From an uncultured Crocinitomix sp. (GTDB lineage Bacteria; Bacteroidota; Bacteroidia; Flavobacteriales_D; Crocinitomicaceae): a stretch of 64,000 nucleotides of DNA. This document shows positions 44,917 to 64,000 of the stretch, one piece after another (within the stretch, counting starts at the first letter, position 1; each line of letters starts with the position of its first letter). Where the stretch lies: the NCBI GenBank assembly GCA_937136425.1, contig CAKZON010000086.1:1-64000 (forward strand), given 5' to 3'. A model generated the notes under the pieces. That model ran no database searches. It saw only the letters and a list, made by a program, of their open reading frames with translations, and had not been told where the DNA came from. The position numbers were made by a program, and so were the translations under genes.

Positions 44917-44947
44917 AATGTTGTTTATTTATACTGTTTAATGTCAA

Positions 44948-45607
44948 TCAAAATTTTGCGTCCCAAGCCTTGTTCTGTCTAGCGAAAATATCGGCTTTAA
45001 CCATTTTCGTTTTTCGTCTGCTCCAAAGCAATTGGACAAAAGCTAAAAGAATTACAAGGCCTAATCCGCCTCCAACGAAAAAGTAAATTCCTCCACTTTT
45101 TTCTTTTTGAGAATCTTTAGTTTCATCTGCATATTTCAAAAAGGCCGTTAAGTCTACACGCTCTTGTTCCGTTAACGGATTATTGTTGTATGTTGCAGCC
45201 ATTGCTGGAAATGGCGGTGCGCCTAACCAACTCACAAGGCCTTCACCAAGTCGACTGTAGACGTCAGTTAAATCTTTGGCGAATAGTCCACCAGGTATAA
45301 CATCTTCGTGCGTTACATTATGACATGCAATACACGAAGGGCCTCCATTTTTGAACAATGCACCTCCTTGAAAGAAAGATTTACCTCTTTCAATGTCTCC
45401 TATCAGTACAACCTCTGGTGTACTTTCCAAATCTTCTTCTTCTGTTACGGCTTCCTCTTCTTCAATATTTTCTACGATCTGCGTAGTGTCTTCCTCTAAG
45501 GCTAAATCAATGGTGTCCTCTTGGGCATATGAAATAAGCGGTGAAAACATGAGTATTTGACCCGCTATGAGTAAACCAACCCGTTTTACTAATCTTGTTC
45601 GATTCAT
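44948..45607 (-). CDS. NarC-like membrane-anchored cytochrome c
   Basis: This 219-aa protein has a signal peptide (ending SYAQ), a 40-residue acidic linker rich in Glu and Val, a monohaem cytochrome c domain with CIACH (Cys92, Cys95, His96), and a C-terminal membrane helix (GGGLGLVILLAFVQLLW). It is the first gene of the nar operon. A cytochrome of this kind before narG recalls NarC of Thermus and haloarchaeal nar clusters, but homology is not established. With the cytochrome fused to NarI, two haem c domains face the periplasm. Confidence 0.82.
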   Translation of the reverse strand: MNRTRLVKRVGLLIAGQILMFSPLISYAQEDTIDLALEEDTTQIVENIEEEEAVTEEEDLESTPEVVLIGDIERGKSFFQGGALFKNGGPSCIACHNVTHEDVIPGGLFAKDLTDVYSRLGEGLVSWLGAPPFPAMAATYNNNPLTEQERVDLTAFLKYADETKDSQKEKSGGIYFFVGGGLGLVILLAFVQLLWSRRKTKMVKADIFARQNKAWDAKF

Positions 45608-46323: not shown

Positions 46324-47181
46324 ATGCGTTTGTTAAAATTAAATATTACACTTTTTCTAATATTGATTCTTCTTCCGTTTATAGGAAGATCATTGAATAT
46401 CAAGATCTATTCTGAAGATCAAATTGCAATTCAAAAAATCGTTTGTTTTCCAAACTTTATTGATACGACTGGTAATTACTCTCTTGATAGGATTGAAGGT
46501 AATTTGTTTGAATATACAGGTGAGATGACAAAATGGATCATACTTGATATAACTGACACTGAAGGGAATACTTATAGGCGAAAAGTATATCCAAATTATT
46601 ACGAAAATCATAAACTTAAAATAGTTCTTTATACTGGTCAAGCAGATTATTATTCTTTTAATGCAGGAACCCCAATTCCATATATTCCTATTTGCGATCA
46701 ATTTCTTGTACTGCTTCACGAAGGAGCAAGTTCAGATTCAATAAGCAATAAGCTTGAAAAATTGCGTTTAAAGCAAAGTAAAAAAGGTTACCCTGTTTAT
46801 TCGTTTAACGGTGACTGCATAGAAAGAAGAGTAAAACAAAAAAAAATAGCTCAAATCGCAGATGATATAGATTTAATCCCATTATCTATCAGATTTAATG
46901 GTGAAAATTGTCGATACTTTTCAAATCAAGTTGATATTATTCTCGACTCAGACTTATCTGAAAATGAGGTTGCACAGTTGTTTCATAGTGTCGACATGGA
47001 TGATTTTAAACCAATTCGTCAATACGGTAGATTAGTGAATTTTGACAATTGTCAATATTATCGTGTCTCCTTTTCATCAGATGATATGGTTTGTTACACA
47101 TTTTTAAAAAAATTAAAAAATTTATATCAGAAAAACGAGGTGCTAAAAATTTTCACAAAGACTATTGGTTACTTCAATTAG
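46324..47181 (+). CDS. Secreted protein with two subtilase-prodomain-like units
   Basis: This 285-aa protein has a signal peptide (to about residue 23). The rest contains two units that follow the pattern of fervidolysin-type S8 prodomains: a hydrophobic strand with a downstream helix, an aromatic-containing middle and a closing hydrophobic-Pro or Lys segment. Unit one is CDQFLVLLHEGASSDSISN to DLIPLSIRF; unit two is SNQVDIILDSDLSENEVAQ to IFTKTIGYF. The same pattern occurs in the giant subtilase next door (KIKIRFQPKTSLVAIKRLI to AIPLSVMSPEPN). It may be a separate intermolecular chaperone or inhibitor. This assignment is inferred from pattern alone. Confidence 0.5.
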   Translation: MRLLKLNITLFLILILLPFIGRSLNIKIYSEDQIAIQKIVCFPNFIDTTGNYSLDRIEGNLFEYTGEMTKWIILDITDTEGNTYRRKVYPNYYENHKLKIVLYTGQADYYSFNAGTPIPYIPICDQFLVLLHEGASSDSISNKLEKLRLKQSKKGYPVYSFNGDCIERRVKQKKIAQIADDIDLIPLSIRFNGENCRYFSNQVDIILDSDLSENEVAQLFHSVDMDDFKPIRQYGRLVNFDNCQYYRVSFSSDDMVCYTFLKKLKNLYQKNEVLKIFTKTIGYFN

Positions 47182-47197
47182 GATTAAAACAAAACTT

Positions 47198-50100
47198 ATG
47201 AGATTCTCTTGTATTATATATGATGATTTAGGGCAAAAAACGCAAGCAAAAGTTAGCGTGTCCTATAAGGATCAACTTTCCAATCTTTCTTTTGAGAAAC
47301 GCTCCAAAGCTTATAGAGGTCATTTGGATGTAACCGATAGAGGTGAGATAATTTTTTTTGTGAAAAAGAAAGGATTCGTTTCCGTAAAAACATCATTCAT
47401 TCTTGAAGCAAGAGAGTATCAATTCTTTTTGGCTCGTTCAAATGCGGGGTATATAAAAAAAGGAGATGTTATTCGGCCTATTCCAAATTATTCTGGGGTT
47501 TATGGAATTATGGATTTTGGACGAGATAAGCAGGCTATACTTGATGAGTTCGGGTTGGAGGTTCTACGAGAGCATAACGGAGAGAAAGTGACGGGATCTC
47601 ATTTATATGTGAAAAAGCAAAAATTCTTAACTCGTAAGAGTGATTCTCAAAAAGAAAAAATATTCAAAACCGATCTGGCTAAGTTGAGAAAACGTTTAGG
47701 GCAAAATAGCGTTGGTCAAGTTTTAGATTTGACAAAGTCAAAAAGGGTATATGGAAGTAAAATAAAAATAAGATTTCAGCCGAAAACAAGTTTAGTAGCA
47801 ATTAAACGTTTAATCGCAGAATGTGAATTCGAATTGATTAGAAAAACAAGAGGAGGAATGTATGTCGTGGATGCTGGTAGCGATTGCGGTATTGATGAAA
47901 TCCAGAAGCATATTGAAGAGTTATCTAAAAGTGAACTGGTTAAATCGGCCATACCATTATCAGTAATGTCACCTGAGCCAAATGTAGTTGCAGGGAATTT
48001 TTTAGCCGGTGGACAATACACGCATAAGGTCATGGAAGTACCCGAGGCTTGGGAAGCTTTAAAAATGAATAAGGGTGTTGACTATACCTTTGGTATTGGA
48101 GATATTTTAGTAGGGGTTTCAGATTTTGGCTTAACACCTGTTGGTGGTGCTCAAAACCCTTCTTTTATGGTTGAGGTAAAATTATCGACTGGAGGAACTG
48201 AGGATAAAATATGCACTCTCCAAGACTTTCGATCAACACCTCATGTTGGATATCCTTTGGGGTCCTTCGGTCCCAATAATGATGCTGGGACTTTATGGGA
48301 TGGCGTTATCAGCAATCATGGAGTAAATGTATGTGGAGTAATTCTTGCTTCAGCGACTGACGGTGTAGATTCAAGTGGTATAGCTGGCGTAGCACCAGAG
48401 ACGAGACTCATAAGTCTAATTGCAAGAGAGATAGATGATGATCTTATCGTTAACGCTTTTGGTTGGGCAGCAGGTTTGTATGAATTTAATGATGGTATTA
48501 ATTTCCTTTCTATGCAGGCCAAGGGGTTCGATTTAATGGGATCCAGTACCGGCTATAAATATCCAAGTACGGTTGAAGAAGAAGATGAATTCAAAATATT
48601 AATAGATGATTTATTAACGTACGGCAGAAATGGTAAGGGAACGTTATTAATTTTTGCCGCCGGTAATGATAATAAAGTTATTTCATACGTAGAGCCTACA
48701 TTAGGTTCACCTCAAAATAATTATTACGCGACTTACAACGGTGTTCTTTCGATAGGAGCCACGTCATTTTATAATGACTATAATAGTGAACGAAAAACAC
48801 GATACAGTAATACTGGGAAAATAGACTTTTGTGCACCTTCGAATAATTCGGGATCAGGCTATGATGATCTTCATTCCCCTGTTTCAAACATTCATTCCTG
48901 GTCAGCAACAAGAGTTGGTTCGGGAGATTTACCCGGTGGGGTCTTGGAAGAATTAACCGTAAGCTCTTCAATAATTGGCTCAAATTCACTTATTCAAAGT
49001 GAAGCAACCATTGTTGCGATACCAGATGCGGCAGGGCCAATTCCAAGTGCTTATTTGACAGCTGACTTTACCATTGGAATGACTGCTGTTCAGGTAACAA
49101 CCACTGATGGATTTTTTGATGGGATGATTATTTCTCTGAAACAAGTTGCTGGAGATATTGAGTTTGTAAAAATCACTACGGTTTCCGAGTTAACATTAAA
49201 TATTGATCCATCAACTCCTCTTACCAACGATTATCTGTCTCCAATGACAAATGTTAAAGGATATACAACAGTAAGTGATATTATTCCAGGTGATTATAGT
49301 GTTGGAGAGCAAATAGATTTTGAATTAATCAATCATGGACGGACTACATATGAAACGGTTAGATTAGTACATATTTCGGGTAGTATATTGGGATTTACTC
49401 ACCCATCAACACATAATCTGTCTGCGGGTTCCGTTGTAGGACTAAGAAGAAATCCACTAGTCTCTGAAGGGTATTTGGACAGTTCAACTTTTCCTGCAAA
49501 CTATGCTCCAACAGGAAGTCCAACAAGTGATATAAGTTCCAACGGGAATATCACCATTGTGGGAGAATCTAATTTTGTGTCAGGTACAATGATATTCATT
49601 GAAAGCGATTCCGGTGACTTTGAGTGGGTTATTGTGGAATCTACCACACCTCCACCAGACGGGTCTCCTCCTGAAACTCCTGGTGTAATAAATATACATC
49701 CTGACACACCGATAATCAATGACTATTTAATGGTGGATTCTCCAACAATAAAAGGATATCCAACAATACTCGTGTTTAACCCGTCTCCGGTTCTGAGTCC
49801 TGGACAAAAGATTTTAGTCACAAGAGGCTCCTTTATGACTACTTACAGGGCGTTTATGAATGGTGCAATAGCTGTAGAGCCATCAGCAACAATGATATCT
49901 ACAGGGGGAACAGAAATTCGTAAAGAAATTTCAATTCAACTTTTAAGCGTTGGAACCTTAGCTCCTAATGATGTTGTGCTCCTTGGTAAACCAGAATTTA
50001 ATTATACCCCTGAAATTGCTCTAACTGAAATCAATGAAAAGAGTGAAGTTGTTAAAATCACTCATGTTCTTGATGATGAAAATAAAATTATTGTAGAACG

Positions 50101-53100
50101 TATTTTAAATGATCATTCAACTCCAATTAAAATTTACAAAGGTGCTTTAGATTATGATTCTCAGTTTAGTGGAACGTCTAGTGCTTGCCCGTCTGTTACG
50201 GGAGTTGTTGCCTTAATGTTATCCGCAAATCCAGATTTGACATGGATAGAAATTATCGATTTGTTAAGAAAATCTTCTGATAAAATAGATAAACAGAATA
50301 AGGGATATGAATTGCCAGCTTCTGATGATGGGCATCAAAGTGCGGATGGCGATATTTTGGGGTACAGTGCAAGTTTGGCGGATGAAACTATTCGACCAGC
50401 AGGACAAGGGCGCTGGAAAAACAAAGCTGGAGAATATATTTATGGGATGGATGGGACTCTATTGGTAGATGAAGTTGATGCAGTTCCATATTTTAGCGAA
50501 TGGTATGGTTATGGCCGAGTGAATGCAAAGAATGCGGTAAATTTAGCTCTTGCTTACAGCCAAAACAATCGTGATTTGGTCATTCGTGATACCATGACAG
50601 ATGATGGAACAACTGGTAATCCAGTGGATTTAGAAGTAAATAGTCCAGATGTCTGGATTAGAAATATTGATCCTGACTTAGATACATTTGATTATCCTGG
50701 GTTAGATTATGCTACAGCAGGTCCTCATCAAAACCCATTAAAGTATGGTGATCGATATGTTTATGCAAGGATTAAAAATATTGGAACACTAGACCATAGT
50801 CTTGAAGCAAAAGTGCGGTTTTTTGCAGTTTTGGATGTGCCTGGAACCGATTATAAATTTCCTGATCATTTTACGGAAAAAGCAGATGTATCGGAAGGGG
50901 AAATAGGTGTTAAGCTAATTGGTGAGATAGAGTTATCGGAAGAATATTTTGCACCTGGAGAAGACCATATTTTCAATGTTCTTTGGAGCAAAGATGATTC
51001 AGACGTTAACTCAGAATACGAAACAAGCATTTTAGTAGAAGTTACACCGCATGATGGTCCTTATTTCGATACAGAAAAGGAAGGAGCATCATTAGGGGAT
51101 TGTAATAATATTACACGAAAACCAATCGTTTTTCAAGAAGATATTGAAATATTAGGTGTTGATCAAAAATTTCCTTACACAATAGGTGTTCCTTCCGAAG
51201 ATATTGAATCTCCAATTTCAACGAGTTTTCAGGTTATGATTTCGGATCTTAATGCCTTTGTTACGGAAAATACTGTGGTTAAGTTAATTATTAACAGGTT
51301 AGATGCTACGACAGAAGAAGTTGAATTCATTTATGAAGGTGGTTCATGGGGTTTTAACATTCCTCCTACAGATTCTTGGGCAACTTTAGATCCCCCGCTT
51401 AAGGAACCTTATGGACCAGCCAATTTGGCTACAGGGGACATGAATAGCATTATATTTAATGGAACTTTTAGTATTGATGGAACAGTTGACAATGTTACCA
51501 TTTCGGCAAGTTATGAAAATTCCGATACTGAAATGTTAGGAAAACAACGAACTGTTGATGTAAATGTATATAGCGTTCCTGTACCTGGGACAGAAGATGA
51601 CCCAATTGAAAAAAATACGGTTTATTTTTTCACCGAATTTGATTTACTCAATTCTCCACAAGTTGACGCTTATGGTCCTGTTCCATCAGATTTGGGGACC
51701 ATTTATCAGACAACGAGTAAACACACCGCAACGGCTAATTGTAAAGCCTTTGGTGTAACTGATGGGCAAATAATGGTTCAGGAAACAAGCAATCCGTTAT
51801 TGGTTAACGTAATTTTAAAACCTAAAAATCAAGGGGCAATTGATTTTTTAGATATTAAATACTTTATTTACCGAGGAATTTTAAAAGCTGATTTGATTGA
51901 TGGAGTGGATGACGATCTTATTGCTCCTTTAGAAACAAGTGAGTTTATTGATTCAATGTGGGAGACGCAAGACGCGATTAATGCCGCAATTGAAGACGCA
52001 GATGAAGATGATGGAATTACACCAGGATCGATTCTTGATAAACCTTCATCAAAATCATTTGGTATTCATTACAAGGCTACGACTGTAAACCCAGGAGATG
52101 TCGAAAAATCAGACCTGGCCACTATTGATGATTTATTTTTTGATGCAAGTAGCAATTATAGATTCCCAACTATTAAAGCAGGTCAACAAATTGGTCATTT
52201 TGACAAAGATGAAATTGGATTTGATATTATTCTTAATGGAATGTTGAATCAAACAACATTTGGACAAGTTCGAGGATCTGAAAATCGAATTACTGCGGCT
52301 GAACTTGATGGTTCTGAATCCGATTTAGAATGTTTTGTTAATAGAAGTCAACGGGCTGAAATATTAAATTATTTAGATCCAGCGGCTTTTTATGGAATTC
52401 ATATTTATAGTGGAATTAATGCCATTAACTCTTCGGAAGAGGATAAGCTATATATAGATAACAAGGACAATGATCCGTACGATTCACTCATTAGTTTGTT
52501 CAAAAATAAAAACTTAACCTATATCGATATTCGAAACGAAAATGGTTATAACTATAACTATTATGATAGCTATAATGACGTTGATGGAAATCAAATAAAA
52601 TTCTCGTTTGACGAACTAGTGCCCACTAGTGAGCAAGTTTTCGGCACACATGGATGGCCGATTCGAATAGTTGAAAATGACGAGCTTGCTTCAGGTGAAA
52701 CAGGTAAGAAAAATACTTTTTGGATCGAGCTGCCTAAAGGAAATAATCTTGATCCCTTATTATATATGCCATTTGCTGCTTCAGCAAAACGTTTCCCTAA
52801 ATTACCAAAGCGAAAGAAAAAATTCTTAACTCCTGAGTTTCTTGGAGCGAACATATATTCTGAGCCTATTGAATTAGGTCTACCTAATAAAAGAGATGAA
52901 GGAGATACGACCGCCATTGCATGGTATGTTAAACTTACCTATATTAAGAAAAACCGATCGGATAACACTCCAGTTAATACTCTTGAACTGAATAGCGTAC
53001 ATTCTCTTGACCACGTTTTTCCACTAGTGGATTTATTGCCTTGGGATTCTACAAACAACATAAAGTATTTATCAGGGTTTCATTCCAGATTTGTTCAAAG

Positions 53101-55285
53101 AGATGATTTTTCATTTATTGGAGAAACAGGTATTGCAATCGAATCTGATCGCGTTTTTCTATTTTCAGTACCAGAACAAATTTATCAGACTTCGAATAAG
53201 AAGCAACGCTTTTTCAAACGAATTCTTGGTGGTACAAGTAATAAGAACTCCTTTTTTGAGGTATTTCAAAATTCGGTTCCCGATTTGATATTAGAGAAAA
53301 AGACCCTTACAATTGATGGGGTCGATCAGGATTGCTTATTGTTAGAAGATCGAGGCCTAATTAAAGAAGCCGAATCAACAAAAAACAACTTTTTTTGTAT
53401 AGGTTTAACTAAGGTAGAATTTGATGCATTTATTGCTGCTGGGGAAGCAGTAAACTTGGATATAAGCAAGCATTATCCTTCGCTAATTATTGCCGCTGAG
53501 AACGTCCTTTCAGATGATAATGATCAAGCCTATTTAGAGTATGACCTAAAAATTTCAGGAATTAATTCAAGTGGCGAATATGTAGAAGCTCCTTTGGTAG
53601 TTAAAGTTCACAGTGTTGATGGTATTATGTTAACCTCTCAAAGCTTTATCCTGCTTGAAACGTTGAATTCCGTAGAGAATGAATGTATTCAATTTGATCA
53701 TGAAATTAATTCACCAAAACACAATACGGGGGTTGGACAAATTATCAAAAGAGTAAGCCTTTACGTTAAAACTAACGGAGAAGTAATTCGATCTTGGAAA
53801 TTATATAATCGAGATGCAAGTATTGCTACATTTGAAGGTGGAGAAATCGATAACTTTAATGTAACAAAACTAGTTTCAGATGAAGTTGAAATTCCAGTTG
53901 GAACGAGATGTGTAATGCTAGAATGCGAAGGTCTTCCTATTCTAACACATGGAAGTATCAAATTTGTTCGAATAGTTTGTTGGTATGCAGGTGTATTTCA
54001 TGAAGGGTATATTCACGAATCAGCTTTCTTGAACAGTTCCAGTGTAAGATCAACTAATCCAGAAGGTTTAACTAATGATGAAATTTTCGAATCATTTGTA
54101 AATGATGCCAGATTAGACCTTTTCTTGGCAAAAGAACATGTCGCGTCAGGGCAAGCTACTTTGGACGATTCTTTCCAAAGTATTTTAACTGATATTTCTT
54201 CTTGTGTTGATCCTGTTGGTTTGGTAGACGGTCCTTATGATTCAGGCGCGTCATTAATTGAAAAATACGTTAATGGATCTGTTGATACTAAAAATCAAAT
54301 CGCGGATAGAATCAGTGGAAAAATTGATAGAAAAGGACTGGTGGCAGTTTATTATGCTGATGGAGAATCTGGTAGGCGTTTTAGTTTTCCGGATACCATA
54401 GCGAATTTCATTGCGTTAATGGAAAGTTTAGATTTAATAAGTGCTTCTGCCAGTAAGTTTGACTTTTTTCCGCTAACCCATGAAATGGTGCCCGGAAATG
54501 GGGTAGATGATACCGTATTTTACGATTCTGAATTTGCCGAGTATTTTGCAGCAAATTGTCCGAATTTACATTCGAATATGCAAGGTAACTCTGGAAGTAC
54601 AGATGAAATAGTCACTGAATTTACAAACGAATTAAAATTAATCCGTGATTGGCTAACTGACAAAAAGGGAAGTGATCCAGCAAGACCAATATTGCATACT
54701 CCAGAGGCGAAATGGTTTTTGGCGGATGGGACCGGTCCAGATAATAAAAATAGATCAAGTACAGGAGGTGGGCCTGTGACACCTGAACATCCTGAAGGTA
54801 TTGATTATTTTGACTTTTTAAGTATTCAATACTTGCAAGTCGTTCATGGGCTAACTATTAAAAATCCAGGTAATCCAAACCATGTAGAAACAGATTTTTT
54901 AGCCCCTTTAATTTTTATTGACCAATCGTTCGGAACTTTAAATAGCAACAACATTCTGAGTGTGTTTATTCATGAAATGTATATGCGCGATCTGATTTCA
55001 GCCTATACCAATACGCACGGATTATGGTCAGAAGTTCCTGAACCGCTTAATACTTCCCTGACAAAATTGGTAGCTGAAACTGCATGGGAATATGTAAAAG
55101 ACAATGATTTTGCAGATTTCTTTGCTCATGGGCTTGCACCAAATCCTGCTTATACAGATGAAAATGGTAAAAAACTGAGCAGTGGATATCGAACGGACAC
55201 AATTTTAGATTTTTTGCAACGCAACCCTTTTATTGGGGTTATTTATTTAAAAGCTTATTTGGATGAAATTTTAAAAGAATTATGA
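47198..55285 (+). CDS. Giant S8 subtilisin-like protease with large internal insertion
   Basis: I choose ATG 47198 (2,695 aa; MRFSCIIYDDLGQ), 16 nt after the upstream stop; ATG 47165 would overlap. No signal peptide is visible. Residues about 180-270 resemble a prodomain. The catalytic residues are Asp309 (VSDFG), His374 (NHGVNVCG), oxyanion Asn490 (AAGNDNK) and Ser994 (GTSSACP). Asn and Ser are 504 residues apart, against about 65 in subtilisin; the insert contains three related modules with E-(V/W)-V-(K/I)-I and L-x-(V/I) turns. After residue 1100 come CARDB-like beta domains and about 1,500 residues I do not recognise. It probably acts as a cargo or surface protease with an unknown export route. 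Confidence 0.8.
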   Translation: MRFSCIIYDDLGQKTQAKVSVSYKDQLSNLSFEKRSKAYRGHLDVTDRGEIIFFVKKKGFVSVKTSFILEAREYQFFLARSNAGYIKKGDVIRPIPNYSGVYGIMDFGRDKQAILDEFGLEVLREHNGEKVTGSHLYVKKQKFLTRKSDSQKEKIFKTDLAKLRKRLGQNSVGQVLDLTKSKRVYGSKIKIRFQPKTSLVAIKRLIAECEFELIRKTRGGMYVVDAGSDCGIDEIQKHIEELSKSELVKSAIPLSVMSPEPNVVAGNFLAGGQYTHKVMEVPEAWEALKMNKGVDYTFGIGDILVGVSDFGLTPVGGAQNPSFMVEVKLSTGGTEDKICTLQDFRSTPHVGYPLGSFGPNNDAGTLWDGVISNHGVNVCGVILASATDGVDSSGIAGVAPETRLISLIAREIDDDLIVNAFGWAAGLYEFNDGINFLSMQAKGFDLMGSSTGYKYPSTVEEEDEFKILIDDLLTYGRNGKGTLLIFAAGNDNKVISYVEPTLGSPQNNYYATYNGVLSIGATSFYNDYNSERKTRYSNTGKIDFCAPSNNSGSGYDDLHSPVSNIHSWSATRVGSGDLPGGVLEELTVSSSIIGSNSLIQSEATIVAIPDAAGPIPSAYLTADFTIGMTAVQVTTTDGFFDGMIISLKQVAGDIEFVKITTVSELTLNIDPSTPLTNDYLSPMTNVKGYTTVSDIIPGDYSVGEQIDFELINHGRTTYETVRLVHISGSILGFTHPSTHNLSAGSVVGLRRNPLVSEGYLDSSTFPANYAPTGSPTSDISSNGNITIVGESNFVSGTMIFIESDSGDFEWVIVESTTPPPDGSPPETPGVINIHPDTPIINDYLMVDSPTIKGYPTILVFNPSPVLSPGQKILVTRGSFMTTYRAFMNGAIAVEPSATMISTGGTEIRKEISIQLLSVGTLAPNDVVLLGKPEFNYTPEIALTEINEKSEVVKITHVLDDENKIIVERILNDHSTPIKIYKGALDYDSQFSGTSSACPSVTGVVALMLSANPDLTWIEIIDLLRKSSDKIDKQNKGYELPASDDGHQSADGDILGYSASLADETIRPAGQGRWKNKAGEYIYGMDGTLLVDEVDAVPYFSEWYGYGRVNAKNAVNLALAYSQNNRDLVIRDTMTDDGTTGNPVDLEVNSPDVWIRNIDPDLDTFDYPGLDYATAGPHQNPLKYGDRYVYARIKNIGTLDHSLEAKVRFFAVLDVPGTDYKFPDHFTEKADVSEGEIGVKLIGEIELSEEYFAPGEDHIFNVLWSKDDSDVNSEYETSILVEVTPHDGPYFDTEKEGASLGDCNNITRKPIVFQEDIEILGVDQKFPYTIGVPSEDIESPISTSFQVMISDLNAFVTENTVVKLIINRLDATTEEVEFIYEGGSWGFNIPPTDSWATLDPPLKEPYGPANLATGDMNSIIFNGTFSIDGTVDNVTISASYENSDTEMLGKQRTVDVNVYSVPVPGTEDDPIEKNTVYFFTEFDLLNSPQVDAYGPVPSDLGTIYQTTSKHTATANCKAFGVTDGQIMVQETSNPLLVNVILKPKNQGAIDFLDIKYFIYRGILKADLIDGVDDDLIAPLETSEFIDSMWETQDAINAAIEDADEDDGITPGSILDKPSSKSFGIHYKATTVNPGDVEKSDLATIDDLFFDASSNYRFPTIKAGQQIGHFDKDEIGFDIILNGMLNQTTFGQVRGSENRITAAELDGSESDLECFVNRSQRAEILNYLDPAAFYGIHIYSGINAINSSEEDKLYIDNKDNDPYDSLISLFKNKNLTYIDIRNENGYNYNYYDSYNDVDGNQIKFSFDELVPTSEQVFGTHGWPIRIVENDELASGETGKKNTFWIELPKGNNLDPLLYMPFAASAKRFPKLPKRKKKFLTPEFLGANIYSEPIELGLPNKRDEGDTTAIAWYVKLTYIKKNRSDNTPVNTLELNSVHSLDHVFPLVDLLPWDSTNNIKYLSGFHSRFVQRDDFSFIGETGIAIESDRVFLFSVPEQIYQTSNKKQRFFKRILGGTSNKNSFFEVFQNSVPDLILEKKTLTIDGVDQDCLLLEDRGLIKEAESTKNNFFCIGLTKVEFDAFIAAGEAVNLDISKHYPSLIIAAENVLSDDNDQAYLEYDLKISGINSSGEYVEAPLVVKVHSVDGIMLTSQSFILLETLNSVENECIQFDHEINSPKHNTGVGQIIKRVSLYVKTNGEVIRSWKLYNRDASIATFEGGEIDNFNVTKLVSDEVEIPVGTRCVMLECEGLPILTHGSIKFVRIVCWYAGVFHEGYIHESAFLNSSSVRSTNPEGLTNDEIFESFVNDARLDLFLAKEHVASGQATLDDSFQSILTDISSCVDPVGLVDGPYDSGASLIEKYVNGSVDTKNQIADRISGKIDRKGLVAVYYADGESGRRFSFPDTIANFIALMESLDLISASASKFDFFPLTHEMVPGNGVDDTVFYDSEFAEYFAANCPNLHSNMQGNSGSTDEIVTEFTNELKLIRDWLTDKKGSDPARPILHTPEAKWFLADGTGPDNKNRSSTGGGPVTPEHPEGIDYFDFLSIQYLQVVHGLTIKNPGNPNHVETDFLAPLIFIDQSFGTLNSNNILSVFIHEMYMRDLISAYTNTHGLWSEVPEPLNTSLTKLVAETAWEYVKDNDFADFFAHGLAPNPAYTDENGKKLSSGYRTDTILDFLQRNPFIGVIYLKAYLDEILKEL

Positions 55286-56169
55286 TCATTTATAATAAAA
55301 TACGCGATTTATTTGTGATAGCGCTTCTTTTAGTTCTTGGAGTGAATCACACGTATTCTAATGATTCTATTCTTGGCATTACGCAACTTGGATGGACTGT
55401 GGAGGATGAATTTAACCGAGCAATGGGAACAATTCTTATAACGAACATTTCAAATGACTCGATTGAAATTACAGGTTTTAGATATTCAGGTAAAACGGAC
55501 ATTAGATGTCTAACGGATTATCACGTCGTTCTACCACCAGCTAAATCTTTGCCCATACGTTGGGATAGTAGATATATTGAGTTTCTTTATCGAGATGACT
55601 TCGAATCATTCTGTCAAGCATATCAGAAAGGTCGGTTTAAGATAGATTTTCGGGTCAATACAATTATAAATGACGCTCGTCAATCAGTTAGTCTTTCATT
55701 TATTCCGCTTTTAGAAGAACTAAGGTTTGCACCAACAAATACTTCTTGTTTGAGTTTTGAACCGGAAAAAACCTTTTTAGAACCTACTACTGAATATAGC
55801 TTGATGAATGATTTCATTTATTTAGAGGATAATAGAATTCGAGTGATTACCGGCGTTATCCGATTGGAAAATTTGGGTAATTCCAATTTTCAGCTTAAAA
55901 AAGTAACTAAAAATGTGGATAATTTTTTCATTCATGTTCATTCCAACTCCTTTGTTAGGGAGAATGACCAAGAGGTTCATTCTCAGGTACAAAAAGGTCA
56001 AAGTATATTGTTAATTTATAGTTTAACCTTTCCAGATAAAAGATTAGAAGTTGAAAAATTTCTTAAGAAATTTGAAAAAATCACGGTTGAGTTAGAATAT
56101 GTTGGCGGTTTTACAGAACTGATCGATATAACCTTTTCAAAAGATCGATTAATTAAAATAATCCATTAA
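55282..56169 (+). CDS. Secreted protein of unknown function in giant-gene cluster
   Basis: This 295-aa protein starts at an ATG overlapping the giant protease stop (ATGA). It has a signal peptide (to about residue 25, HTYSND) and two beta-rich, Ig-like halves (LITNISNDSIEITGFRYSG and GVIRLENLGNSNFQLKKV). No enzyme motif is visible. It is one of two cluster proteins with a signal peptide, the other being the prodomain-like protein at 46324. Function is unknown. Confidence 0.6.
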   Translation: MIIYNKIRDLFVIALLLVLGVNHTYSNDSILGITQLGWTVEDEFNRAMGTILITNISNDSIEITGFRYSGKTDIRCLTDYHVVLPPAKSLPIRWDSRYIEFLYRDDFESFCQAYQKGRFKIDFRVNTIINDARQSVSLSFIPLLEELRFAPTNTSCLSFEPEKTFLEPTTEYSLMNDFIYLEDNRIRVITGVIRLENLGNSNFQLKKVTKNVDNFFIHVHSNSFVRENDQEVHSQVQKGQSILLIYSLTFPDKRLEVEKFLKKFEKITVELEYVGGFTELIDITFSKDRLIKIIH

Positions 56170-56181
56170 ACCAATTCAGAT

Positions 56182-59100
56182 ATGGCAGCATCAAGTTATT
56201 ACCCAAAACTAACGACCGTTCTAAATTTAGATAACCTAGCAGATGAATTAAGTTTTCTGGAAGGTGGGCTAGACAATTTACTGGATGGAATTTTTGTTAG
56301 TGATTATCAAATTGTAAAATCCAGAAAAGGTGATGCCATTAGCTATCAAATTGTACTAAAGGTTTATAAACGAATCGGAATGGAAATCCCTGGAGGAATC
56401 GTATTTCTCTTGAATCCGCCGATTCCTTCAGATCCGGACCCACTATCGTCGGACATTCCCGTTTCTGTGGATGTGCAGGCCGAGATACTAAAATATGTAG
56501 GGAATTTTGATATTCTAAAATTTTCTTCTCAACCAATCGCTTTTTTTAACTTAATTCTAGAGTTGTTAGGGCTCGACGTAGCCGACCTATTTGATGACCT
56601 AATTAGCGCATTCACGATTTCTAATTCTGTGAATGAATTAGTGTCAAAATTGAATGATGCAAATGGTTTGACAGGTACCGCTGATGAAATCCCTAGATCG
56701 GCTTCAATGAGTCGTATCGAACAAATTGAAGAGATTATAGACGCAATTGAGGCTGGTGGATCAGGTTTAACTCCTTTAGATCTTGCATTTACTTTATTAT
56801 CTGCTGGAAGACCTATTAATGAAATCAAAGAAAATTTAAATAAGCTATTCAAATCACGGTTAGGGGTGTCACCAATTGAACGAATTAAAAAGTTGTTTAT
56901 ACCAACAATTGGTGCAACGTTACAAGTTTCACCAGCACTAGAGTTTCCAAGAAAAATATTAACACCTGTGTATGATGCCGACGGCAACAGTCCTTTTGAT
57001 CCAGGTGATACAGGAGAACCATTTTCCGTAATATCAGGAGATGAAAATGAATTCCCGAAAGTCTTGTTTAATTTTGGCGATATTTTGCTTTATGTTCACA
57101 GTAAAACTGGATTGGGTGCAGATGTCGATTTTGTGATTAGCTCGAATGTGCCTGCGCAAATTGGGAACACTGGTTTAATTATTGATATTGGAGGTATAAA
57201 GGTCGATTTTAGTAATGAAAGGAATATTCCGGAGGCTGATGCTGACGGTAGGCCTATGGACTTCAAGGGTGTTTATATTCAGGAGGCTTCGATTACTTTT
57301 CCAAATATATTTAACGCAAGTGCTGACAATGAAGCGTCAATTGTTGCCAGAAATTTATTAATTGGCTCTCATGGAGGAATGTCAGGAACAATTGGTATCC
57401 AATCGGAAGATGACAGCGAGATACATTTAAATTTCATCCCCAATGCGGATGGATTTTCTTTTGATGTTGAAACAAAAAAAATGACCATTACGGGCCTAAA
57501 AACAATACTTATTGAAGGTGATGGTGATGAAGATGATACATTTGGAACTGATGACCAGATCTTAACTATTCATATTCCAGATGAAGGATTAACGATTGTT
57601 GATGCCGAAAATCAATACTACGATATTTCTGAAGTTGGAGTGGTGTCGGAGATTGACGCTCCTGCGTTCGGACTACTCCAATTTAAAATTGGTGAACAGT
57701 TAACCATTACAGTTGAAGATTTCTTCCTAACCTTCAGTAAAAATAAAGTTGTTTCAAGTACCGTTACCGGTAAAATTGAGATACCATCTTGGGATGCAAT
57801 AGATGAACCGCTTAATTTTGAAATCGATTTTACGGATGGATTCAAAATTCATGTTGGTTACCCAGATGGAGTAGACGTTATAGACAATAGCATTTTTACG
57901 CTTACCTTGCGCGAACTCGAATTAGGCCGCCAAAATGACAAATTCTTCGTCGGCCTTTCGGCCAAATTGCAAAACAATCTTGAAATTCCTTACGTGAATA
58001 AATTTGTGCCTTATATTATTGATGCGCATAATTTAGGATGGTTGCAAGGAGATGGTTTTGTCTATGACTTAACCCTTGAATGGGCTAATGGCCTAAAATT
58101 AGGCTTGTCAAACGACGGCCCTCCAGCCCTCGAAAAGTCAACGTTCCGCATTCCGTTCAATCAGAAAAAAGATGATGGCTTATTTAAATTAGAAGCGATC
58201 GATTTATCCCTAGCTCCGGTGGAAGCTGGTGTAACGGTAGGTGTGCAACTAGTCGGAGCGGTATTTAATTTGAAGAAAATCGTAGTGCTTACCATTGATG
58301 GACTAGGAGCAGAAGTAGATTTAACTAAAGTTGAAGAAGGTGGAAATGTAGGGCCGTTTAATGCTGCGTTTGGCTTAATTCCACCAAAAGGTATAGGACT
58401 TAAAGTGGACGCAAAAGCCATAACAGGTGGAGGCTACGTGTTCCTTGATTTCGAAAAAGGAAGATATGTAGGTGTAGCCGAGCTAACCATTAAAGATAAA
58501 ATTTCCCTAAAAGTGATTGGTATCATTACTACAAAATTACCAAGTGGTGAAAAAGGAAATTCGGTCTTGCTATTGGTAACAGCCGAATTTTCACCAATTA
58601 ATTTAAGCTTTGGATTTACCTTAAACGGTGTTGGTGGTTTAGTTGGAATTAACCGCGACATGAATTTGCAAGCACTGCGAGATGGGGTTAAAACCAATGC
58701 CATTGATAATATTATGTTCCCGGATGATCCGGTTGGGAATATTGCACAAATAGTTTCGGATCTTGAAACAATATTCCCTATACAAAAAGGACGTTATACT
58801 TTTGGAGTGATGGGATTAATTGGTTGGGGAACCCCAACTTTAATTACCATTGAACTTGGTTTAATGCTTTCAGTACCTAAGCCAGTTCGATTGGCAGTGT
58901 TAGGTGTGGTTAAATGTCTTCTTCCTACAGACGATAACGACTTGGTAAGATTACAGATCAATTTTGTAGGAACAATCGATTTTGAAGCAAAATATATCAC
59001 GTTTGACGCTTCTATTTATGATTCTAAATTATTGACCTTTGGATTGGCTGGAGATATGGCTTTCCGTCTCAAATGGGGAGATGAACCGAATTTCTTATTC

Positions 59101-60318
59101 TCAGTGGGTGGATTCCACCCTTCATTTACGCCGCCGCCGTTGAATCTGCCTACTATGAATAGGTTGATGATTAACTTCCTGGCAGAGGATAATCCGAGAC
59201 TGACCTTATCGACCTATTTGGCCGTAACGTCTAACACGGTTCAAATGGGATCTCTCCTCGATTTTTACTTCAGTTTGCCGGCAGGACTAGAGGTCATTGG
59301 AAATCTTGGTTTTGATATATTAATTCAATTCTCACCGTTCTATTTGAAAGCGGAGCTTTATGCTATGCTATCAGTGTTACACAATAGTAAAGCCCTCTTT
59401 TCAATTTCCTTATATGGAATGCTTGAAGGACCAAAGCCGTGGCATGTTCAAGGAAAGGCTGAGTTTGTATTCCTGAAGATTAAGAAAAAAGTCAACTTCG
59501 ATAAAACGTTCGGTGAGGAAGAAAATACAGAGTTGCCGGACATTAACGTTATGCCGCGATTGGAAGAGGCAGCAAATAGTCCTTCAAACTGGCAAGGTGT
59601 TTTCCCTGCTGAATCAAATTTATCTGTCACCTTAAAAAAACAAGAAGAGGGAGCAGAACCTATAACGCTTTCACATCCCAATGGGAGTTTGCGTTTTGAG
59701 CAAAAGGTCGTACCAATGAATACGGTTATTAATAAATTTGGTAAGCAAGTCCCAATGGATTATCAGCACTTTTCAATGACGTTGACAGATGAAGGTGACT
59801 TTGAATTTATAAGCGCAACTACAAAAGAATTTTTTGCTCCTGCTGATTATGTTGAACTATCGGATAATGAAAAATTAGCACGTAAGTCATTTGAGAAAAT
59901 GGACTCAGGACTTAAAGTTGAAGACACCAACCGCTATGATAGTAGTGACTATTTAACTCGGAAAGTAGAATATGAACAAATCGTCTATGATTCTACTGAA
60001 TTTGGGGATAAATTGGATGGATTATTCACAGAAAACACAGCCACTTTCCAAAATTGGGTAAACAATAATTCAACTTCTAATTCTAGCATAGGGAGTAAAA
60101 AACGCGCAAAGTCGAATTTTGCACCGAATAAAATGAAAGTAGCAACTGAGACTTTTACCATTGCAAACCTTGAAGATTTGAGTGCCTTCGCAGAAGTAGA
60201 AGGTGAGTTGACCTTCGGAAGTGAGGCTGAGGCTCAAGTGGCTTTAGCAGATTTATTTACTAATAATCCAGAACTAGTCGATCAAATAGATGTAGTGCTG
60301 GAACATGAACTTGTATAA
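56182..60318 (+). CDS. Giant DUF6603-like protein (1378 aa)
   Basis: The protein has no signal peptide and starts MAASSYYPKLTTVLNLDNL. Most of it is beta-strand repeats. Residues about 660-1080 carry a run resembling the DUF6603 region as I recall it (PPKGIGLKVDAKAITGGGY, FDFEKGRYVGVAELTIKDK-like, GWGTPTLITIELGLMLSVP, FSVGGFHPSFTPPPLNLP). The last 250 residues are charged and partly coiled (SSNSSIGSKKRAKSNFAP). DUF6603 proteins are large, of unknown function, found in bacteria and fungi. The gene is 12 nt after its neighbour and 2 nt before the next, so all are in one operon. Confidence 0.65.
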   Translation: MAASSYYPKLTTVLNLDNLADELSFLEGGLDNLLDGIFVSDYQIVKSRKGDAISYQIVLKVYKRIGMEIPGGIVFLLNPPIPSDPDPLSSDIPVSVDVQAEILKYVGNFDILKFSSQPIAFFNLILELLGLDVADLFDDLISAFTISNSVNELVSKLNDANGLTGTADEIPRSASMSRIEQIEEIIDAIEAGGSGLTPLDLAFTLLSAGRPINEIKENLNKLFKSRLGVSPIERIKKLFIPTIGATLQVSPALEFPRKILTPVYDADGNSPFDPGDTGEPFSVISGDENEFPKVLFNFGDILLYVHSKTGLGADVDFVISSNVPAQIGNTGLIIDIGGIKVDFSNERNIPEADADGRPMDFKGVYIQEASITFPNIFNASADNEASIVARNLLIGSHGGMSGTIGIQSEDDSEIHLNFIPNADGFSFDVETKKMTITGLKTILIEGDGDEDDTFGTDDQILTIHIPDEGLTIVDAENQYYDISEVGVVSEIDAPAFGLLQFKIGEQLTITVEDFFLTFSKNKVVSSTVTGKIEIPSWDAIDEPLNFEIDFTDGFKIHVGYPDGVDVIDNSIFTLTLRELELGRQNDKFFVGLSAKLQNNLEIPYVNKFVPYIIDAHNLGWLQGDGFVYDLTLEWANGLKLGLSNDGPPALEKSTFRIPFNQKKDDGLFKLEAIDLSLAPVEAGVTVGVQLVGAVFNLKKIVVLTIDGLGAEVDLTKVEEGGNVGPFNAAFGLIPPKGIGLKVDAKAITGGGYVFLDFEKGRYVGVAELTIKDKISLKVIGIITTKLPSGEKGNSVLLLVTAEFSPINLSFGFTLNGVGGLVGINRDMNLQALRDGVKTNAIDNIMFPDDPVGNIAQIVSDLETIFPIQKGRYTFGVMGLIGWGTPTLITIELGLMLSVPKPVRLAVLGVVKCLLPTDDNDLVRLQINFVGTIDFEAKYITFDASIYDSKLLTFGLAGDMAFRLKWGDEPNFLFSVGGFHPSFTPPPLNLPTMNRLMINFLAEDNPRLTLSTYLAVTSNTVQMGSLLDFYFSLPAGLEVIGNLGFDILIQFSPFYLKAELYAMLSVLHNSKALFSISLYGMLEGPKPWHVQGKAEFVFLKIKKKVNFDKTFGEEENTELPDINVMPRLEEAANSPSNWQGVFPAESNLSVTLKKQEEGAEPITLSHPNGSLRFEQKVVPMNTVINKFGKQVPMDYQHFSMTLTDEGDFEFISATTKEFFAPADYVELSDNEKLARKSFEKMDSGLKVEDTNRYDSSDYLTRKVEYEQIVYDSTEFGDKLDGLFTENTATFQNWVNNNSTSNSSIGSKKRAKSNFAPNKMKVATETFTIANLEDLSAFAEVEGELTFGSEAEAQVALADLFTNNPELVDQIDVVLEHELV

Positions 60319-60320
60319 TT

Positions 60321-63300
60321 ATGTCAGAAAGTATTTTACCAGATTATACCTTTCTTCCTTGGCTCCGCAAAGGAATTGCCAATAAGATTGATGATGAGGA
60401 AACCAGTGGAACGGGTGGGACGGATTTAGAACGTGCAAAAATTTCGGTTAAGTTGAACGTTACCGGAACGAATGGAGGAACTTCGGATACTGTAACATTT
60501 CCAAAAGATGTCAGCCTCATTGGACCTGGGGATATTGTTGGCTTTAGTAATACGGCCATAGTAAAAAATGATCCGCAGGATAAAACAATCAATTTTGAGC
60601 CGAACTATTTGGCTAGTATTCAGTTTTACGACGAAGATTTTGCATGGCGTTATTCGCCAGCAGCAGCCAATACCAATGGACAATTGCGTCCATGGTTGTT
60701 TTTATTCGTTTTAAAAGAATCTGAATTTAGTTTAGAAGATCCAACGTATGGTATTTTGCCTTCCATTACGATTGCGGATGGAGCAACCGCAAGTTTTTTA
60801 CCAAATCATCAGGAAATTGCTGCTTGGGCGCATGTTCAAGCAAATGATAAATTGGCAGATGTTGAAACAGATGAACTTTCGATAGCAATTGACAAATTAG
60901 AGGAAAATGCCGGCTTCAATCCAAATTTAGCAACCTGTAGAATTCTTTCTCCACGAAAATTGGAGCAAAACGTAAAATACCATGCCTTTTTAGTGCCTTC
61001 TTATGAAGTTGGTCGTTTGGCGGGTTTAGGCGTGAAATTTGAAGAATTTGATCCTAAGATTCCAGTTCAATTGGCATCCTGGGGAACAGCACATAATCCT
61101 GAACACGAACCCAATCGTTGGCCAGTGTATCATACTTGGTCATTTGAGACCAGTGAAGGTGGAGATTTTGAACATTTGGTGCGATTGTTAAAACCTAGAA
61201 CATTGGACAACCAGGTCGGGCGACGACCTATGGATATTCAAGACCCGGGATTTGGTTTAAATTATCAGGTAGATTTGGATGACGACGGAGAAACGGTAAC
61301 AAAAACTACGTTGTCACTTGAAGGTGCTTTGAAAATACCTGAAAGCACTGGTGAGGCATACCCTTACCCTGATGCCCAAGATGATATTGGTGGCTTCGAC
61401 CCAACGACCCAGATAAATTTCAGAGAACAATTACAAGATTTGGTCAATTTAGACGAAGACTTAAAATTAGAGGGAGACTTATCTGCTTCGGATAACCATT
61501 ACGGAGAGGCTGAATCAGAAATAGGAGATGCATTGGTCAATGATGATCCAATAATTGCGCCACCCTTATATGGTCGTTGGCACTTTTTAAAAAATAGAGC
61601 AGAAATTGACAATGCAGATGGAACAGCAGATACAGCGAACTGGTTTCACGAATTAAATTTAGATCCGCGACACAGAGCAGTAGCTTCTGTGGGAACGGAA
61701 GTTGTGCAACAAGATCAGGACTTTTTAATGGATGAGGCTTGGGAGCAATTAGGAGATGTGATTGAGGCAAACAAAAAAGTCCTTTGGGCACAGTTAACAA
61801 TGGAAACGGCAAACGCCCTTTATAAAAAGCATGTTAAATCTCAACCAAATGAAAAAGCATTGGCTTTAACGGGAAAAATGAAGCGCCGAATTAAAAATAC
61901 TGATTCGGGAAAAACATTTTACAAAGAAGAAAAAGAGGCGCGTCTCCCATTAGCTGTTGAAGACAAGTCCTTTAGAAGAATTGCTAGACCAATCGGACCC
62001 TTTATGAAAAAATTGGATCCTGAACAAAAAATAAATACGTCATTTGGAGGACAAGAATTGGTAGATCGTTTGGATAATGGTACGGCAACGGCTGCAGTAA
62101 TAAAGTCGGAGCCTGATATGCCAGGTTTGCAGCCATGTACAGCTGTTTCTTTGTTGAACGAAGGTGTCGGTAATACGGTTCCGCACAGTCCAGCATTTAG
62201 ATTAGGAGCACTTGGTGTTGATCCTGATAATACAGGGGGCACGGAAACAACAGCTTATAAAGATGCCCTTGCTCCATTTACGACATATTATGACGGAATA
62301 AACTGGGTTTTGCCTACTCCAAAACCACCATTTGATATCACAAAAGCAACGAGCATTAAGGAAGAAATTCGACCTAAAAAAACAATGGTTTCAAGAGTCT
62401 ATAAAACAATCGTTTTTGATGAAGCCGAGCCTACTCCTGAAAGAATTGTTCCGGCAATGGCGCATCCTGTTTTCAGTAAGCCAATGTATGAAGCAGTTCG
62501 TGATTTGGATACGCAATTATTGATTCCAAATTTGAATTTGGTACCAATGAATACAATTTCATTGTTAGAAACTAATCAAAAATTTATTGAATCGTATATG
62601 GTTGGCCTGAACCATGAAATGGGGCGTGAGTTATTGTGGAGGGAATACCCAACTGATCAACGTGGAACTTATTTTCAGCAATTTTGGAATGTTTCAGATG
62701 GTATTAATACGGATGGGTTAACGGCTAGTGAATTAGAAGAAAATCGCTACGATATTTCAAAAATTCATACCTGGGACAAGACAACAAATTTAGGCACACA
62801 TAATACAGGTGAAGTACCTGCAAAACCCGTTCTTTTGATTCGTGGTGATTTATTACGTAAATATCCCAATGCAGTGATTTATGCTATTCAGGCAGAATGG
62901 CAGGAGGATGAAGGTGTAAAACAGTACGATTTACCTAGAAGACCAAAGGACAATACTGAGGTTTATCCAATATTCAATGCAACAATAGATCCGGATATCA
63001 CATTTTTTGGATTTGATTTAACCATTGAAGAAGCAAGAGGAGCAGACCCCGCGGTACTGCATCAGGCAGTTTTGGATGGTGACCCAATCGGAGATGATAA
63101 TCCTGGTTATTTCTTTGTATTAAAGGAACGTCCTGGAGAAGCACGTTTTGCTTTAGATGTTGATCCGGAAGAGGTATCTCCGTTTGATTCTTGGAACGAT
63201 CTCCATTGGGGACGATTGTCTTCAACTGAATCAATTGGATTAAGTGATTTACTTGAACTAAGTCCAGAAGCTCCAACTTGGGATGGGAATATGAATGCAG

Positions 63301-63380
63301 CTCAAATGGCAAGTATTCTTTACCAAAACCCGGTTATGGTTTGTGTACATGCGAGAGAAATGTTGCAAGAAGAAGAATAA
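60321..63380 (+). CDS. Large protein (1019 aa) of a family linked to DUF6603-like genes
   Basis: The protein begins MSESILPDYTFLPWLRKGIA and has no signal peptide. Recognisable phrases include GPGDIVGF, RPWLFLFVLKESEF, CRILSPRKLEQNVKYHAFLVP and VGRLAGLGVKF, which I recall from large uncharacterised bacterial proteins. A Gly-Thr-rich N-terminal stretch is followed by mixed alpha/beta sequence and an acidic tail (EMLQEEE). It sits 2 nt after the DUF6603-like gene, so the two are surely cotranslated or coregulated. It could be a structural part of a large assembly, but no phage tail or contractile-injection gene is visible in the window. Confidence 0.55.
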   Translation: MSESILPDYTFLPWLRKGIANKIDDEETSGTGGTDLERAKISVKLNVTGTNGGTSDTVTFPKDVSLIGPGDIVGFSNTAIVKNDPQDKTINFEPNYLASIQFYDEDFAWRYSPAAANTNGQLRPWLFLFVLKESEFSLEDPTYGILPSITIADGATASFLPNHQEIAAWAHVQANDKLADVETDELSIAIDKLEENAGFNPNLATCRILSPRKLEQNVKYHAFLVPSYEVGRLAGLGVKFEEFDPKIPVQLASWGTAHNPEHEPNRWPVYHTWSFETSEGGDFEHLVRLLKPRTLDNQVGRRPMDIQDPGFGLNYQVDLDDDGETVTKTTLSLEGALKIPESTGEAYPYPDAQDDIGGFDPTTQINFREQLQDLVNLDEDLKLEGDLSASDNHYGEAESEIGDALVNDDPIIAPPLYGRWHFLKNRAEIDNADGTADTANWFHELNLDPRHRAVASVGTEVVQQDQDFLMDEAWEQLGDVIEANKKVLWAQLTMETANALYKKHVKSQPNEKALALTGKMKRRIKNTDSGKTFYKEEKEARLPLAVEDKSFRRIARPIGPFMKKLDPEQKINTSFGGQELVDRLDNGTATAAVIKSEPDMPGLQPCTAVSLLNEGVGNTVPHSPAFRLGALGVDPDNTGGTETTAYKDALAPFTTYYDGINWVLPTPKPPFDITKATSIKEEIRPKKTMVSRVYKTIVFDEAEPTPERIVPAMAHPVFSKPMYEAVRDLDTQLLIPNLNLVPMNTISLLETNQKFIESYMVGLNHEMGRELLWREYPTDQRGTYFQQFWNVSDGINTDGLTASELEENRYDISKIHTWDKTTNLGTHNTGEVPAKPVLLIRGDLLRKYPNAVIYAIQAEWQEDEGVKQYDLPRRPKDNTEVYPIFNATIDPDITFFGFDLTIEEARGADPAVLHQAVLDGDPIGDDNPGYFFVLKERPGEARFALDVDPEEVSPFDSWNDLHWGRLSSTESIGLSDLLELSPEAPTWDGNMNAAQMASILYQNPVMVCVHAREMLQEEE

Positions 63381-63391
63381 AAAAGGAATAA

Positions 63392-63419
63392 TGAATATCG
63401 AACGCTGAATTAAGAAGTG
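63392..63419. repeat. Degenerate heptamer repeat
   Basis: Four xGAA units begin at 63392, 63399, 63406 and 63413 (TGAATAT, CGAACGC, TGAATTA, AGAAGTG), each exactly 7 nt apart. This repeats the period and core of the CATTGAA array at 1-77. Confidence 0.5.
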
Positions 63420-63464
63420 AAAAAACTTTAACATTTAATAATCGAAATTAAAAAAAGAAAAAAA

Positions 63465-64000
63465 ATGCCCAATAATCAAATAGCAAACAAGCAAGCGCAA
63501 ATCGAAAGTGCAAGAGAATATGTTCGTTCGTCCCGTATAAAGATTGCAGATTTTGAAAAACAATTACAAAATTTGCAAGAAGGAAGTCAAACGCAACAGC
63601 AAAAAGATGCCTTGCTCAGACAATGGGATGATGAAATGGATTTGTTGGATGATTATCTGTTAAATTTAGAAGGAAGAATTGGTGGATTCTTAGGGACTCA
63701 AGAAATTCAGAATTACAGTCAACTTCATTCTCAATTTAATGTGTTGAAAAACACACAGAGAAGTGTCGCGGCTGATTTGAAAAAGGCGAAAGATGCTTTA
63801 ACAAAAGTTGAAGCTTTAGAAAAAAGAGCGATACTTGAGTTAAACGAAACTGCGCATCAACGGTTTTTGACTGAGATCGATATAAAAATTCAAGCATCTA
63901 CACAAAAAATTAGTGATTTACAACGTGAAAACCCCGTGGATAATGATGCTGTTGCAGCTGAACAGGCTGTTAAGGCGGATTTGTCTAATAAAAAACAATT
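63465..64000 (+). CDS. Coiled-coil protein, truncated by window end
   Basis: The frame opens at ATG 63465 (MPNNQIANKQAQIESAREYV) and stays open for 178 codons to the end of the window. The visible part is almost all alpha-helix with heptad hydrophobics and Lys/Glu/Gln-rich faces (EKQLQNLQEGSQTQQQKDAL, AADLKKAKDALTKVEALEKR), typical of long coiled coils. It follows the 1019-aa gene by 84 nt, across a heptamer repeat, and is likely in the same gene cluster. The function and length are not known from this window. Confidence 0.75.
   Translation, partial: MPNNQIANKQAQIESAREYVRSSRIKIADFEKQLQNLQEGSQTQQQKDALLRQWDDEMDLLDDYLLNLEGRIGGFLGTQEIQNYSQLHSQFNVLKNTQRSVAADLKKAKDALTKVEALEKRAILELNETAHQRFLTEIDIKIQASTQKISDLQRENPVDNDAVAAEQAVKADLSNKKQ

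Follow-up and report, generated by a model that had tools for sequence, protein, structure and literature searches.

A cluster of giant genes at the right edge of the window

The stretch of DNA analyzed here (the window) comprises positions 1 to 64000 of contig C86, from an uncultured Crocinitomix sp. Its right end is occupied by a cluster of seven genes, A to G, all on the + strand, which begins at position 46324 and ends 7.3 kb past the right window edge. The rest of F, as well as G and a further gene, H, were recovered by extending rightwards along C86. Our study deals with the four genes D-E-F-G, hereafter the core, and with the gene that precedes them.

The core opens with D (56182 to 60318; 1378 amino acids [aa]), which carries the domain DUF6603 at residues 666 to 1229. 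It continues with E (60321 to 63380; 1019 aa) and F (63465 to 69242 on C86, of which the window holds 63465 to 64000; 1925 aa), neither of which belongs to a family, and is completed by G (69284 to 71278 on C86, outside the window; 664 aa). The N terminus of F is helical and of the coiled-coil type, as had been read from its first residues, and G contains the motif WNRLEPRPR..DALWMMTRQWQFGE. Upstream of the core lie three further genes. A (46324 to 47181; 285 aa), an accessory gene, and C (55282 to 56169; 295 aa) both encode proteins with an N-terminal signal-like hydrophobic segment and no known domain. Between them, B (47165 to 55285) reaches 2706 aa when counted from a mechanically assigned TTG; its likely start, the first ATG (47198), lies behind A with a gap of 16 nucleotides (nt). 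Genes B and C overlap by 4 nt, and the following distances are 12 nt (C-D), 2 nt (D-E), 84 nt (E-F), and 41 nt (F-G). A first-pass annotation, made from the letters of the window, had described a same-strand cluster of at least six genes, among them a 1019-aa protein, that continues past the window. The extended contig bears this out, with all open reading frames (ORFs) where they had been placed. The annotated spacing of 2 to 16 nt or overlaps holds everywhere except before F, and the count of three genes over 3 kb was too low, as B, D, E, and F all exceed this length.

Searching the protein family libraries gave two assignments. B matches Peptidase_S8 (PF00082) in Pfam with an E value of 2e-20 and displays the subtilase motifs SDFG (319), NHG (384), AAGND (498), and GTSSACP (1003) in their places, along with long inserts, which confirms the annotated protease as a member of the S8 family. 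A domain that we call X (residues ~1485 to 2150) is fused behind the S8 region of B and forms an ORF of its own before D in three other loci (L026, L089, and L010). D scores 398.7 bits against DUF6603 (PF20248), whose cut-off is 27, and is thus a member of that family. None of A, C, E, F, and G had a match in Pfam or NCBIfam, no PHROG or PADLOC model matched the core proteins, and PDB profile searches with D to G returned only chance matches to coiled coils.

We monitored N-terminal signals by a crude hydropathy test. A and C were positive, while B, D, E, F, and G showed no hydrophobic N-terminal segment, in line with the earlier statement that the big proteins lack signal peptides; such a segment was also absent from 77 relatives of D. 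A low cysteine content was also noted. The first-pass annotation had also listed an Ig-like secreted protein: the signal-like segment is there in both A and C, but no library returned an Ig-like match for either. Relatives of A and C were not found in the other loci. Small signal-bearing genes directly before D also occur in L014, L026, and L089, where the likeness to C is one of position, no sequence similarity having been found.

A four-gene core shared by bacteria and archaea

Among 40 relatives, DUF6603 was found at an E value of ≤0.001 in 3 genomes besides the window's own, 2 of them above the family cut-off and 1 of the same genus. The same-genus relative harbors D-E-F-G-H in identical order at 56 to 71% identity, and D-E-F is present at 30 to 40% identity in a genome that is less closely related but belongs to the same taxonomic order. 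A search of ~85,000 species genomes with E yielded 80 loci. Clustering of their ORFs recovered E in 79, D in 76, F in 74, and G in 70, and the loci lacking one of the four were mostly cut by a contig end or had lost a gene to the ORF caller. Neighboring core genes were encoded on one strand in every case (D-E, 75/75; E-F, 73/73; F-G, 69/69), with median gaps of 9, 12, and 8 nt, respectively. By the NCBI taxonomy of the named loci, eleven bacterial phyla are represented, and the same order is present on megaplasmids of the haloarchaea Natrinema, Salinigranum, and Halalkalicoccus as well as on a Streptomyces and a Rhizobium plasmid. On the plasmid of Rhizobium lusitanum (L098), E and F both consist of two adjacent genes, and these splits mark natural domain boundaries. 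This recurrence across phyla is far beyond chance.

The four proteins also evolved together. Their pairwise distances correlate with r values of 0.85 to 0.93 across 54 loci, while the permutation maxima did not exceed 0.21. In 395 evenly sampled Bacteroidota genomes, to which all our prevalence figures refer, E occurred in 8 (2%) and DUF6603 in 17, and D stood beside E in 8/8 (Fisher P = 2e-12). Phyla are intermixed in the core tree. D-E-F-G is thus a genuine unit, sparsely distributed and inherited together in fixed order, since order, strand, and co-evolution exclude unrelated singletons. We therefore reject the view that the core genes are unrelated neighbors, which the first-pass annotation had named as the finding that would overturn its own proposal of one multiprotein structure built from signal-less giants. 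That proposal, together with its remark that no described system matches, is supported by the conserved order, the co-evolution, and the lack of family matches.

Two other origins were considered and rejected. E, F, and G are not diverged copies of each other, as the profile pairs E/F, E/G, and G/F all remained below 5% probability, and a prophage or phage-tail origin is contradicted by the absence of any relative in IMG/VR. One unverified GenBank record filed as "Bacteriophage sp." (MT835531; L099) does contain E-F-G, along with genes resembling those of an ordinary actinobacterial chromosome, and is probably mis-filed. Downstream of G, on either strand, about 12 loci (among them L021, L037, L041, L045, L047, L060, L067, L069, L070, L079, and L080) carry a P-loop/rhodanese protein resembling tRNA 2-selenouridine synthase, which is probably inherited context.

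E, F, and G belong to no library searched, and DUF6603 is named but not described: Pfam knows the domain of D and is silent on the partner genes E, F, and G and on the gene upstream. Among 5.39 million papers searched, none mentions DUF6603 or describes the cluster, most subscription journals being outside this coverage, so that such absence is not proof of novelty. Four giant proteins shared from Bacteroidota to haloarchaea, none with a described function and three without any family, point to a conserved process that is undescribed in the sources searched, and DUF6603 hereby gains a concrete, testable setting.

Variable enzymes upstream of the core

The slot upstream of D is constant in position and variable in content. 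Of 74 genes preceding D, 67 share its strand and 56 lie no more than 100 nt away; of 66 genes following G, the same holds for 33, a share that unrelated neighbors also give, and for 15, respectively. Recurrent clusters of enzymes occupy the upstream slot in 53/74 loci versus 2/66 downstream, the two exceptions (L052 and L087) having an M64-type or S1-type gene behind G. The first-pass annotation had missed this regularity, of which the window protease is one occupant.

According to Pfam (n = 58), the upstream proteins include subtilases, M64 peptidases, PhoD phosphatases, tyrosinases, one galactose/glyoxal oxidase, a royal-jelly-type protein, NAL1-type trypsin-like proteins, a matrixin, and a beta-lactamase-like protein. 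Weaker readings, based on motifs only, add a LAS-type peptidase, an alpha/beta hydrolase, a glycoside hydrolase, and a group with a conserved RGCxxG cysteine. The key enzyme motifs are intact (GDSG in 25/25, GDQxYAD in 17/17, and the S8 triad of the window protein). A signal-like N terminus was found in none of the ~74 enzymes of the recurrent clusters, in the same test that was positive for A and C.

Mapped on the concatenated-core tree, the enzyme class of 47 labeled loci changes at least 22 times, compared with a mean of 30 and a minimum of 26 in shuffles, so that enzyme class is partly inherited and often replaced. Indeed, sister cores may be preceded by unlike enzymes: trypsin-like and subtilase in two Ruegeria, M64 and glycoside hydrolase in two Chloroflexota, and alpha/beta hydrolase and trypsin-like in a Saprospiraceae/Planctomycetaceae pair. 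The many proteases among these enzymes and the accessory distribution of the cluster would fit a role in conflict or defense, with the core sensing invasion and setting a hydrolase free. We regard this as very unlikely, given that enzyme classes that are not toxic are common, that no nucleotide-binding or sensor domain was seen, and that the models for anti-phage defense gave a weak subtilase match in B alone and nothing for D to G.

Local comparison between the enzyme classes revealed a module of ~120 residues common to the C termini of trypsin-like (S1-type) and subtilase (S8-type) proteins. It is carried by 24 S1-type proteins and by 4/5 S8-type proteins of that cluster (28 proteins in all), always 7 to 31 aa from the C terminus, and it is also encoded as a stand-alone gene of 138 to 141 aa in three loci. 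Among the 395 Bacteroidota genomes, the module occurred in 4, and in 3 of these it sat on a subtilase directly before D (P = 2e-5). It gave no significant match in Pfam or to a PDB chain, the PDB profile search returning nothing beyond chance coiled-coil matches. One tail on two unrelated protease folds beside one core looks like a docking tag, and we consider the module a candidate for the element that docks the enzyme on the core.

A possible enzyme carrier at the cell envelope

We favor, with some confidence, a modular machine in which D-E-F-G form a fixed chassis and the signal-less enzyme is an exchangeable payload. D, E, F, and G would assemble into a chassis of ~5,000 aa and ~0.55 MDa at a 1:1:1:1 ratio. 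The gene or genes directly upstream of D would encode the payload, exchanged over evolution and represented in the window by the subtilase B, and the C-terminal module would dock it on the core in the two protease classes concerned. The core would then position the enzyme at the envelope and, in this scheme, probably carry it out of the cytoplasm. Four features suggest this: the payload classes are often secreted and yet the enzymes lack signal peptides, E is membrane anchored in one clade, D has a predicted beta structure that is long and amphipathic, and some relatives of G carry extracellular-type domains at their ends. We infer the physical assembly of D to G and an action at or across the envelope, while active export of the enzyme is proposed here only tentatively. 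That the whole represents an undescribed export or delivery apparatus of bacteria and archaea, in which D-E-F-G would load a swappable signal-less enzyme, partly via the C-terminal module, and carry it across the envelope, and of which the second cluster type described below would be a related subtype, is a possibility that we somewhat doubt. If enzyme carriage were true, it would be a new route by which proteins without signal peptides are exported or displayed, with the C-terminal module as a ready handle for testing it.

Several observations weigh against this interpretation. At least 5 loci (L021, L067, L071, L076, and L096) have no obvious upstream enzyme, and several of the enzyme class labels are motif based only and were set by hand. 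The enzyme could also be a processing partner instead of a payload. Module docking is not general, because the window subtilase and the M64 and PhoD proteins lack the module, and in one further genome the module is found on an S1 trypsin-like protein without any DUF6603.

The predicted structure of D (window residues 179 to 1378; 54 rows, plasmid rows not included) is confident over the DUF6603 part, where amphipathic antiparallel strands follow one another over a long stretch, a predicted beta meander, with a mean hydropathy of 2.2 on the apolar face and −0.5 on the polar face. The best fold matches were LptD and apoB100 (Foldseek template modeling [TM] score of 0.14 to LptD) and porins (Z of ~14 at a root mean square deviation [rmsd] of ~10 Å); as the superposition is poor, only the general fold type is safe. 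In Algoriphagus (L067D), ~10 tandem repeats of 125 aa precede DUF6603. Such strands, such matches, and a length that the repeats show to be extendable would suit a role of D as a hydrophobic conduit of beta structure or as a belt that binds lipids, comparable to LptD, apoB, or TamB-like proteins. The cluster would then move or process lipids, and the enzyme would work on the substrate being moved. We think this improbable: the matches, at TM scores of ~0.14 and rmsd values of 10 to 35 Å, may reflect a shared strand arrangement alone, Pfam gave no TamB/AsmA match in D or its extended relatives, and lipids are not the substrate of many payload classes. While the model of D resembles outer membrane beta barrels such as LptD in its long antiparallel amphipathic strands, D lacks a signal peptide and is also present in monoderm bacteria and in archaea, which have no outer membrane.

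For E, the AlphaFold2 (AF2) model (1019 aa, 56 rows) was confident, with a predicted local distance difference test (pLDDT) value of 82.7, and had no match to a PDB or viral structure at an E value of ≤0.001. Its sole match is an Ig/CopC-like subdomain (best Z of 5.0 over 87 residues at an rmsd of 2.8 Å; VIA). In one clade of 16 loci, from Gram-positive and Gram-negative bacteria, hydropathy indicates a two-helix membrane hairpin in the middle of E, flanked on both sides by basic and aromatic residues, which suggests that both large halves of E are cytoplasmic. This topology, the lack of signal peptides in D to G and the enzymes, and the low cysteine content would also fit an intracellular membrane-associated scaffold from which nothing is exported, in which the four giants would remain cytoplasmic and keep the enzyme at the inner membrane or inside a compartment. 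We judge such a scaffold rather unlikely, because tyrosinases, galactose oxidases, and subtilases are often secreted and because the C-terminal LTD or LamG domains of a few G relatives suggest an outside location.

A second type of cluster (type II) was found in those DUF6603 genomes without E that were inspected (loci L121 to L126 and L011/L012; genomes G103, G204, G137, G195, G078, G086, and G029). In constant order, a DUF6603 protein of up to 3223 aa (D') is followed by a protein of 500 to 950 aa (E') and mostly by one of 1220 to 1400 aa (F'). E' is a distant relative of E (hhalign, 95%, E value of 2e-8 over 211 columns), while no relation of F' to F or G could be detected. Type II thus resembles the window type in its distant E, in possessing another giant, and, in three clusters, in an enzyme gene before D', here coding for a lipase or a metallo-beta-lactamase fold. 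It differs in the unrelated F' and in the S74 endosialidase-chaperone proteins beside two of the clusters. By eye, one neighboring protein resembles tail-collar (microcystin-dependent) proteins. In G029 (L012, 7441 to 14016), the type II cluster runs into a giant AMP-binding/ketoacyl-synthase gene of the polyketide or peptide synthase type.

Contractile injection systems and phage tail-like particles combine a constant chassis with exchangeable cargo, and insecticidal toxin complexes (Tc) pair large proteins with an enzymatic part that varies. By analogy, D-E-F-G might form a particle outside the cell, resembling a phage tail or a toxin complex, that is released or displayed and delivers the enzyme to other cells. 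The exchangeable enzyme on a constant chassis would agree with this, as would the sporadic presence in 2% of Bacteroidota genomes with phyla mixed in the core tree, the S74 and tail-collar-like neighbors of type II, and a pore that D could form. We nevertheless consider it unlikely. Sheath, tube, baseplate, and ATPase homologs were not found in A to G with Pfam, PHROG, and NCBIfam, nor were the contractile-injection, LysM, or baseplate genes that the first-pass annotation had suggested looking for; D to G matched no Tc subunit in Pfam or in PDB profile searches. In addition, PhoD phosphatases and galactose oxidases would be unusual effectors, and no immunity gene was seen. Our estimates for the chassis and its alternatives do not sum to one, as several of the alternatives overlap with the chassis reading.

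Gene H begins 257 nt past G (C86, 71536 to 73608; L002, 8537 to 10609) and encodes a beta-propeller (SBBP) protein with a type IX sorting tail. Such a C-terminal sorting domain was not found in B, E, F, and G, nor by Pfam in D, unlike in H. H adjoins G downstream in both same-genus genomes (also L009, 937 to 2979, and L010, 6305 to 8392), and G001 has a second copy of H, split into two ORFs, upstream of the cluster. To the left of the cluster, on the − strand of the window (41275 to 45607), the divergent neighbor is a large molybdopterin oxidoreductase resembling the alpha subunit of nitrate reductase, together with a cytochrome-like protein. Past H, opposite-strand genes resemble polyphosphate genes, and the contig end (C86, 85000 to 92525; L003, 2112 to 9526) encodes a tandem series of similar secreted proteins, several of them glycine rich, with sorting-type C termini.

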